Part shown: positions 16,152 through 17,710 of the stretch, piece by piece
Layout: each line of letters opens with the position of its first letter
Numbering within the stretch: the stretch's first letter is position 1
Assembly (NCBI GenBank): GCA_003215335.1
Contig: QCKM01000004.1
Location: forward strand, 1-64,000
From: Prochlorococcus sp. AG-409-P01
Lineage (GTDB): Bacteria; Cyanobacteriota; Cyanobacteriia; PCC-6307; Cyanobiaceae
Length of the DNA: 64,000 bases
Reading direction: 5' to 3'
Notes under the pieces: generated by a model
Database searches by the model: none
The model's input: the letters and a program-made list of their open reading frames with translations, nothing else
What the model was told of the DNA's origin: nothing
Program-made: the position numbers and the translations under genes

Positions 16152-16191
16152 ACACTCGCTTTGATAAATTAAGACGTCCTTTCATTCCGCA

Positions 16192-16280
16192 CACCTGCTC
16201 GTTTCGGGTGATAGTTGAGTCGATCCAAGCTTTTTGCTTGGCTTGCTTGCATCCCTAGCAGGTGGAGGCGAACCCGAAAC
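16192..16280 (+). promoter_or_regulatory. Structured rpsB leader with a possible pseudoknot
   Basis: Two perfect complementary pairs cross each other: A (16192-16199, CACCTGCT) pairs with A' (16257-16264), and B (16201-16209, GTTTCGGGT) pairs with B' (16272-16280). The order A-B-A'-B' is that of a pseudoknot, or of two mutually exclusive hairpins. Between them is a third perfect hairpin, CCAAGC-TTTTT-GCTTGG (16225-16241). The only Shine-Dalgarno-like run, GGAGG at 16264-16268, sits at the A'/B' junction, 21 nt before the ATG. In gammaproteobacteria S2 represses rpsB-tsf through a conserved leader structure; an analogous autogenous control here is inferred. Confidence 0.65.
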
Positions 16281-16289
16281 CTCTTAAAT

Positions 16290-17009
16290 ATGGCAGTAGT
16301 CACTCTCGCTGAGATGATGGAGGCTGGCGCCCATTTTGGGCACCAGACTCGTCGATGGAATCCCAAGATGTCGCGCTTTATCTATTGCGCGCGCAATGGA
16401 GTTCATATCATTGATCTCGTGCAAACAGCAGTTTGCATGAATAATGCATATAAATGGGCACGATCAGCTGCTCGCAGCGGTAAAAGATTCCTTTTTGTTG
16501 GCACTAAGAAGCAAGCCTCAGAGGTTGTGGCTTTAGAGGCGTCTAGGTGCGGAGCCTCCTATGTCAATCAACGATGGCTTGGTGGGATGCTTACAAATTG
16601 GACGACTATGAAGGCCAGGATTGATCGTCTAAAGGATCTCGAGCGAATGGAGTCCAGCGGAGCAATCGCAATGAGGCCAAAGAAAGAAGCAGCTGTTTTG
16701 CGTAGAGAATTAGAAAGATTGCAGAAATATCTTGGAGGACTAAAAGGAATGAGAAGGTTGCCTGACGTTGTTGTGCTTGTTGATCAAAGAAGAGAAACTA
16801 ATGCTGTGCTTGAAGCTAGGAAATTGGATATCCCTTTGGTGTCTATGCTCGATACCAATTGTGACCCAGATCTCTGTGAGGTTCCAATTCCTTGCAATGA
16901 CGATGCTGTGCGTTCAGTTCAGCTTGTACTTGGGAGAATTGCTGATGCCATTAATGAAGGTCGCCATGGATCAAATGATCAGAGAGGAGGCGAAGGAAAC
17001 AACAACTAA
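16290..17009 (+). CDS. rpsB: 30S ribosomal protein S2
   Basis: 239 residues from the ATG at 16290 ([20 protein letters not shown]); the in-frame extension to 16215 is leader RNA, not protein. Typical S2 motifs are [37 protein letters not shown] and the LDTNCDP stretch. The C-terminus has a short charged tail ([13 protein letters not shown]). S2 joins late in assembly of the small subunit and helps dock S1. It is followed by tsf after 44 bp, the classical rpsB-tsf pair. The leader at 16192-16280 carries strong secondary structure overlapping the region upstream of the start codon. Confidence 0.97.
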
Positions 17010-17053: not shown

Positions 17054-17710
17054 ATGGCGGAAGTATCAGCCAAACTCGTTAAAAGTCTGCGTGACAAAAC
17101 TGGCGCAGGAATGATGGACTGTAAGAAAGCACTTACAGAGAATGATGGCGATATAAATAAGGCTACCGAGTGGTTGCGACAGAAAGGTATTGCTAGTGCT
17201 GAAAAGAAATCTGGACGAATTGCTGCAGAGGGGGCAATCGGGAGCTATATCCATACTGGGGCAAGAGTTGGAGTCCTATTAGAGTTGAATTGTGAAACTG
17301 ATTTTGTTTCACGTGGGGATTTATTTCAAGGACTTTTGAGGGATGTGTCTATGCAGGTGGCGGCGTGCCCAAATGTTGAATATGTCAGCATAGATGACAT
17401 CCCAAATGATGTTGTTGATAAGGAAAAATCTATTGAGATGGGAAGAGATGATTTGTCAGGTAAGCCAGAGCAAATTAAGGAAAAAATTGTTGAAGGCAGA
17501 ATTACTAAGCGTTTGAAAGAATTAGCGTTGTTGGAACAACCTTTTATTCGTGATAGTTCAATGTCCGTAGGAGAACTTGTCAAACAGGTCGCTGGACAGA
17601 TTGGAGAGAACGTACTTATTAGGCGTTTTACTCGCTATACCCTCGGTGAAGGAATAGAGGTCAAAAAAATGGACTTCGCTAGTGAAGTTGCGTCGATTTC
17701 TGGTTCTTGA
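17054..17710 (+). CDS. tsf: Translation elongation factor Ts
   Basis: 218 residues, similar to the short cyanobacterial and chloroplast form and shorter than E. coli EF-Ts. The N-terminal UBA-like domain has [20 protein letters not shown], followed by the core motif [12 protein letters not shown] that contacts EF-Tu. EF-Ts exchanges GDP for GTP on EF-Tu. It sits 44 bp after rpsB on the same strand and no terminator separates them, so they are probably one transcript. An unrecognised gene follows 9 bp after the stop, which may be on the same message. Confidence 0.97.

Follow-up and report, generated by a model that had tools for sequence, protein, structure and literature searches.

In the window (the whole 64,000-nt stretch of Prochlorococcus DNA analyzed here), an operon of rpsB and tsf is preceded by a leader whose features are collected in Table 1. 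The leader reads CGCA-CACCTGCT-C-GTTTCGGGT, followed by P3 (47 nt to A') and then by AGCAGGTG-GAGGCGA-ACCCGAAAC-CTCTTAAAT-ATG. Its strands follow one another in the order A-B-A'-B', so that stems A and B cross. A first-pass annotation of this DNA had described two perfect crossing stems of 8 bp (A) and 9 bp (B), a further hairpin in the loop, and a GGAGG 21 nt before the ATG, and all of these were confirmed at the nucleotide level. When the 98-nt region was shuffled 20,000 times with its dinucleotides preserved, perfect crossing stems of such a size (8 bp or more and 9 bp or more) were obtained once. When the entire 64-kb window was tiled for such stems, the rpsB leader was the sole place in which they were found (two overlapping tiles).

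Table 1 Features of the rpsB-tsf leader and operon in the window.
Feature	Position	Strand	Basis and remarks
Extended -10 box TGATAAATT (TGnTAnnnT)	16162..16170	+	Comparative conservation
P1 5' strand (stem A), CACCTGCT	16192..16199	+	8 Watson-Crick pairs with 16257-16264; conserved CGCA just 5'
Pseudoknot 5' strand (stem B), J2-3 of the rpsB motif, GTTTCGGGT	16201..16209	+	9 Watson-Crick pairs with 16272-16280
P3	16210..16253	+	Basal GAT 16210-16212 / ATC 16251-16253; length differs among species
P3 apical hairpin, CCAAGC/GCTTGG	16225-16230/16236-16241	+	6 pairs, perfect
P1 3' strand (A'), AGCAGGTG	16257..16264	+	Pairs with A; covariation
Linker, GAGGCGA	16265..16271	+	With the preceding G, gives GGAGG at 16264-16268
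Pseudoknot 3' strand (B'), ACCCGAAAC	16272..16280	+	Last base 9 nt before the start codon
rpsB (ribosomal protein uS2)	16290..17009	+	239-aa frame, ATG at 16290; 90-97% identical to S2 proteins of the family
tsf (elongation factor Ts), second gene of the operon	17054..17710	+	Open reading frame; named from its sequence

The nested RNA fold of this leader, taken alone, is unremarkable (z -1.0), because nested folding cannot represent a pseudoknot and because B can also pair with the AUCCC that immediately precedes A'. The estimated energies are -28.7 kcal/mol for P1 and P3 with B and B' left single, -13.0 kcal/mol for the B duplex before any loop penalty, and -35.2 kcal/mol for the best nested fold of the window's leader. 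The nested alternative, in which GGG pairs with CCC before A', competes with the pseudoknot and is close to it in energy. The competing fold could represent an open state of the leader.

Conservation of the element was assessed in rpsB leaders gathered from the same family (Prochlorococcus, Synechococcus and Cyanobium) and from other cyanobacterial families, of which 79 and 59, respectively, were parsed. The crossing element is carried by all 79 family leaders and by 58–59 of the leaders from other families, the uncertain one (L043) having been misparsed, with its correct form also carrying the motif. Within the family, every leader retains at least seven of the eight P1 pairs together with the linker GAGGCNA, and its pseudoknot is exactly 9 bp long (79/79 for each). 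In the other cyanobacterial families, P1 is present along with a pseudoknot that is mostly 7–8 bp long (range 4–10), with GAGGNNNA between the two in most leaders. The P3 regions of family leaders range from 20 to 128 nt and fold better than shuffled sequences, with a mean z of -3.05 (-2.18 for the other cyanobacteria). In several leaders of Synechococcus or Cyanobium type (L081, L088, L068, L074 and similar ones), the P3 arm is much enlarged, with a P3 region of up to 128 nt, and the rest of the element is unchanged.

The first-pass annotation had looked to close relatives for lost stems or missing covariation as signs against the fold. No stem is lost in the relatives, and compensatory changes are seen in both stems and in the loop helix. 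Seven leaders with divergent letters lay outside the parser, and most of these were corrected by hand before covariation was counted. In raw counts that ignore phylogeny, 84 distinct cores (P1 and the pseudoknot strands, without P3) exhibit both-side changes at 13 of 17 pairs: at all eight in P1, and at five of the nine in the pseudoknot when the phylum and E. coli are taken together, the inner four pseudoknot pairs being invariant. In these cores, 97.8% of P1 cells and 88.6% of pseudoknot cells are paired, levels that are flattered by a parser that takes as the P1 5' strand whichever stretch pairs best and uses GGGT and ACCC as anchors for the pseudoknot. The core has a covariation score of 0.397, compared with 0.174 in shuffles, none of 500 of which was as good, and slid versions do not exceed 0.106; for the pseudoknot by itself, the corresponding values are 0.104, 0.048 in shuffles and no more than 0.037 in slid versions. 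An independent MAFFT alignment of 90 whole elements, which is free of the parser bias for P1 and P3, gave 99.2% pairing in P1 and 87.3% in the basal P3 stem. The basal P3 stem also covaries in this alignment, pair 29/80 being A-U in family leaders and U-A in the others. The pseudoknot of family leaders is nearly invariant, with one U-A to U-G change, and its covariation support therefore comes from the other cyanobacteria and from E. coli.

An extended -10 box (TGnTAnnnT) is found 10–40 nt, mostly 22–25 nt, upstream of P1 in 79 of 79 family leaders and 57 of 58 leaders from other cyanobacteria, compared with about 3% expected by chance (an estimate from base frequencies). A scan for consensus promoters gave no sigma-70 match. 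From the position of the box, transcription is expected to start at about 16176–16179. A start downstream of A and B had been raised as a possibility that would speak against the fold, but the likely promoter box instead lies upstream of A, and the whole element should thus be included in the RNA.

Occurrence of the element across genomes was assessed with a covariance model built from 90 cyanobacterial leaders only, with E. coli outside the training set. In the window's own genome, this model has a single match, which is the rpsB leader. Of the 291 genomes examined from the class, 240 have one match each (119 of 132 genera are covered), and the genomes missed include lineages with divergent copies of the leader. 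In a collection of species genomes, the exact picocyanobacterial signature was found on at least 80 contigs. Of the 80 contigs listed, 79 have the start codon of S2 8–15 nt 3' of the signature, and the remaining one ends after 46 nt. Titles among the matches listed are nearly all Prochlorococcus, Synechococcus or Cyanobium, with a few general cyanobacterial ones. The picocyanobacterial form is also carried by L228 and L288 ('Microcystis elabens' FACHB-917 and 'Aphanothece saxicola'), which suggests that both strains, whatever they are called, are members of the Cyanobium/Synechococcus family.

The anatomy of the leader corresponds to that of the rpsB motif, which was described as having P1, J2-3 and P3, a P2 that is short or missing in Cyanobacteria, and a pseudoknot that J2-3 forms with the segment following P1 (Meyer et al. 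2009, BMC Genomics 10:268, PMC2704228). The motif is carried upstream of rpsB in Alpha- and Gammaproteobacteria and a few others, in Cyanobacteria and in some Firmicutes (PMC2704228). A, B, the hairpin, A' and B' of the window correspond to P1, J2-3, P3, P1' and the 3' extension, respectively. The position before rpsB, the closing P1, the pseudoknot, and a variable P3 with P2 short or absent are all found in the window's leader, and in nearly all family leaders a single nucleotide separates P1 from the pseudoknot strand, leaving no space for P2. The pseudoknot is longer (9 bp in the window and 7–8 bp in most other cyanobacteria, compared with 5 bp predicted in PMC2704228), the picocyanobacterial leader lacks a Shine-Dalgarno sequence after the element, and its linker is one nucleotide shorter than in other cyanobacteria. 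The rps2 leader was also reported as cluster 394, a conserved structured region and possible rps2 5' UTR in model cyanobacteria (Voss et al. 2009, PMC2662882); that cluster comes from two model cyanobacteria and not from picocyanobacteria, and the word 'pseudoknot' is absent from the main text. The first-pass proposal of a pseudoknot riboregulator of rpsB-tsf is upheld insofar as the leader is conserved and pseudoknotted. However, its claim that no cyanobacterial form with this topology had been described does not hold, since Meyer et al. gave the same topology with Cyanobacteria named, and Voss et al. the rps2 leader. Thus, an rpsB motif with a pseudoknot in Cyanobacteria has been known since 2009, and what looks particular to picocyanobacteria is a longer knot where the Shine-Dalgarno sequence has been lost. 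We found no description of this variant (Shine-Dalgarno lost, 9-bp pseudoknot) in the literature searched, the alignment rows of Meyer et al. lying outside the search.

In E. coli, repression by S2 through the rpsB leader is established; it needs S1, and the operator lies outside the ribosome-binding site (review PMC10931766). The E. coli leader reads CACGTATC...TTGGGGT...GATACGTG-GAGGCATA-ACCCCAA, which is the same frame as in cyanobacteria, with one C-G to G-C exchange in the pseudoknot. The E. coli operator, or t44 (RF00127), shares with the cyanobacterial leader a P1 that starts with CAC and ends with GUG, the invariant GUGGAGGC, a UAACCC that pairs back with GGGU, and a site before rpsB-tsf; the t44 frame CACAC...GUGGAGGCNUAAC is present in the window as CGCACACC...GGUGGAGGCGAACCC. 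Unlike the cyanobacterial leader, that of E. coli has a P2-like hairpin before the pseudoknot strand and a separate Shine-Dalgarno sequence (GAGG) after the element. The cyanobacterial covariance model recovers the E. coli rpsB leader with 23.3 bits (E 0.0003 in 88 kb). The Rfam t44 model scored 83.5 bits on the E. coli leader, used as a positive control, and reached its cut-off in none of 60 cyanobacterial genomes; a weak t44 match in one genome (G500) is not an rpsB leader. When Rfam was searched with the whole window at the gathering threshold and with the leader at E up to 10, nothing relevant was found, and t44 was unmatched. In Rfam release 15, no family recognizes the cyanobacterial rpsB leader (16192–16280 in the window), and t44 is typed as an sRNA gene without a pseudoknot.

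Picocyanobacterial leaders differ from the others in the region between the pseudoknot and the start codon. A Shine-Dalgarno-like sequence is found there in none of the 79 family leaders, compared with 58 of 59 leaders from other cyanobacteria, and none follows the element in the 79 contigs among the signature matches listed (a set that overlaps the 79 leaders). B' lies 6–15 nt, mostly 9–10 nt, from the ATG in the family, and 13–18 nt from it, with the Shine-Dalgarno sequence in between, in most other cyanobacteria. We considered treating this loss as a wholly special event but toned that reading down. Shine-Dalgarno use is low throughout the window's genome (16% of 108 starts vs 6% background, compared with 27% vs 2% in one other cyanobacterium), so the loss at rpsB fits a general trend. 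The consequence of the loss is nevertheless local: the picocyanobacterial operator occupies the ribosome-binding site, whereas that of E. coli lies outside it (PMC10931766). The GGAGG, whose spacing from the ATG the first-pass annotation had thought sensible only with B' folded or the site remodelled, was rejected as a misplaced Shine-Dalgarno sequence for our main reading, since it is invariant even where a separate Shine-Dalgarno sequence is present. Judged by comparison with other cyanobacteria and E. coli, in which it also occurs, it is invariant sequence of the motif itself.

These observations suggest, with a probability of roughly 0.8, that the window's leader is an rpsB motif, a cis-acting 5' UTR element of rpsB-tsf that serves as an S2-feedback switch. 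Transcription would start a few nucleotides upstream of P1, and the leader would fold as P1 with the P3 arm inside. The strand between P1 and P3 would pair with the sequence just 3' of P1, thereby forming the pseudoknot. When uS2 is in excess over 30S subunits, it would bind (probably with bS1, as in E. coli) and stabilize the fold, so that translation of rpsB, and through coupling that of tsf, would stop. In picocyanobacteria, the fold would act nearer to the start codon: with no Shine-Dalgarno sequence, a shortened linker and a fixed 9-bp pseudoknot about 10 nt from the AUG, the stabilized pseudoknot would block 30S loading directly. That S2 is the ligand, that it represses and that it does so by occlusion are inferred; in E. 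coli, the mechanism of S2 repression is itself unclear. The literature searched contained no account of S2 bound to a cyanobacterial leader. The near-invariant pseudoknot of the family, the competing nested fold and the unmatched t44 model were weighed against an S2 switch.

Alternatively, the element may be a translation enhancer or standby site, with the pseudoknot and the GGAGG delivering the mRNA to the 30S platform now that the Shine-Dalgarno sequence has been lost at rpsB. Such a role is consistent with this loss in all 79 family leaders, and the linker GGUGGAGG, which is invariant in the family, can pair with the 16S tail (-9.3 kcal/mol). It is also consistent with the low Shine-Dalgarno use in the window's genome, which implies that other routes of recruitment must exist. 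We nevertheless consider an enhancer unlikely, since both the GGAGG and the fold are kept where a separate Shine-Dalgarno sequence serves (58 of 59 other cyanobacteria, and E. coli), and since the E. coli counterpart is known to act as a repressor. Less probable still is a leader that answers a different ligand (S1, the S2-S1 complex only, EF-Ts or a small molecule) and lies next to rpsB incidentally. The identification of S2 as the ligand is drawn from the position of the leader and from the E. coli case, where repression by S2 requires S1 (PMC10931766). However, the picocyanobacterial form lies before rpsB in every checkable contig among the matches listed, and such a pairing of leader and gene is the usual sign of autogenous control. 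That the crossing repeats arose by chance or act at the DNA level (as operator palindromes, or as an N-terminal extension of S2 encoded in the leader) and form no RNA structure appears, for practical purposes, refuted by covariation: although the window's genome has an open rpsB frame through the leader (ORF 16215–17009), the compensatory changes preserve pairing and not sequence, and the shuffle frequency given above also speaks against it. A coding extension of S2 through the leader was also rejected, as an in-frame stop lies between P1 and the ATG in 64 of 74 distinct family leaders and leader lengths are not multiples of three.

Within the S2-feedback reading, we tentatively propose that picocyanobacteria may have rebuilt an ancestral S2 operator as a direct lock on the start site. 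The Shine-Dalgarno sequence would have been lost and the pseudoknot lengthened to a near-invariant 9 bp in the ribosome-binding region, making translation of rpsB dependent on opening of the knot, with the GGAGG perhaps offering an alternative 16S contact. If true, this mechanism would be distinct from that of E. coli, given the location of the E. coli operator. With this leader, S2 feedback control in some of the most abundant photosynthetic cells gains a well-supported structure, at a place where Rfam annotates nothing. It also offers a natural contrast, a Shine-Dalgarno sequence with a 7–8 bp pseudoknot vs none with a 9-bp pseudoknot, that could help in working out how S2 represses.

Divergent leaders were also seen outside the main groups. 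Four deep cyanobacterial lineages (L133, L136, L138 and L145) keep the pairing with exchanged pairs, for example CTACGGGT/ACCCGTAG and TGGGT/ACCCA, and would be useful for covariation tests; some of these leaders have altered linkers (GTTTGA, GTTGTTTA). The rpsB leaders of three members of other classes of the same phylum (L153, L154 and L159) have another conserved block in common, TAGCCCTAGT ... TTTAGCCCGTAGTACAATA, with the look of a structured leader of a separate kind. In a deep-branching relative, the rpsB leader (L147:315-394, CACACGCCC...GGGGCGGAGGACAAACC) gives a weak match to the cyanobacterial model (18.9 bits) and is possibly a diverged copy of the motif.
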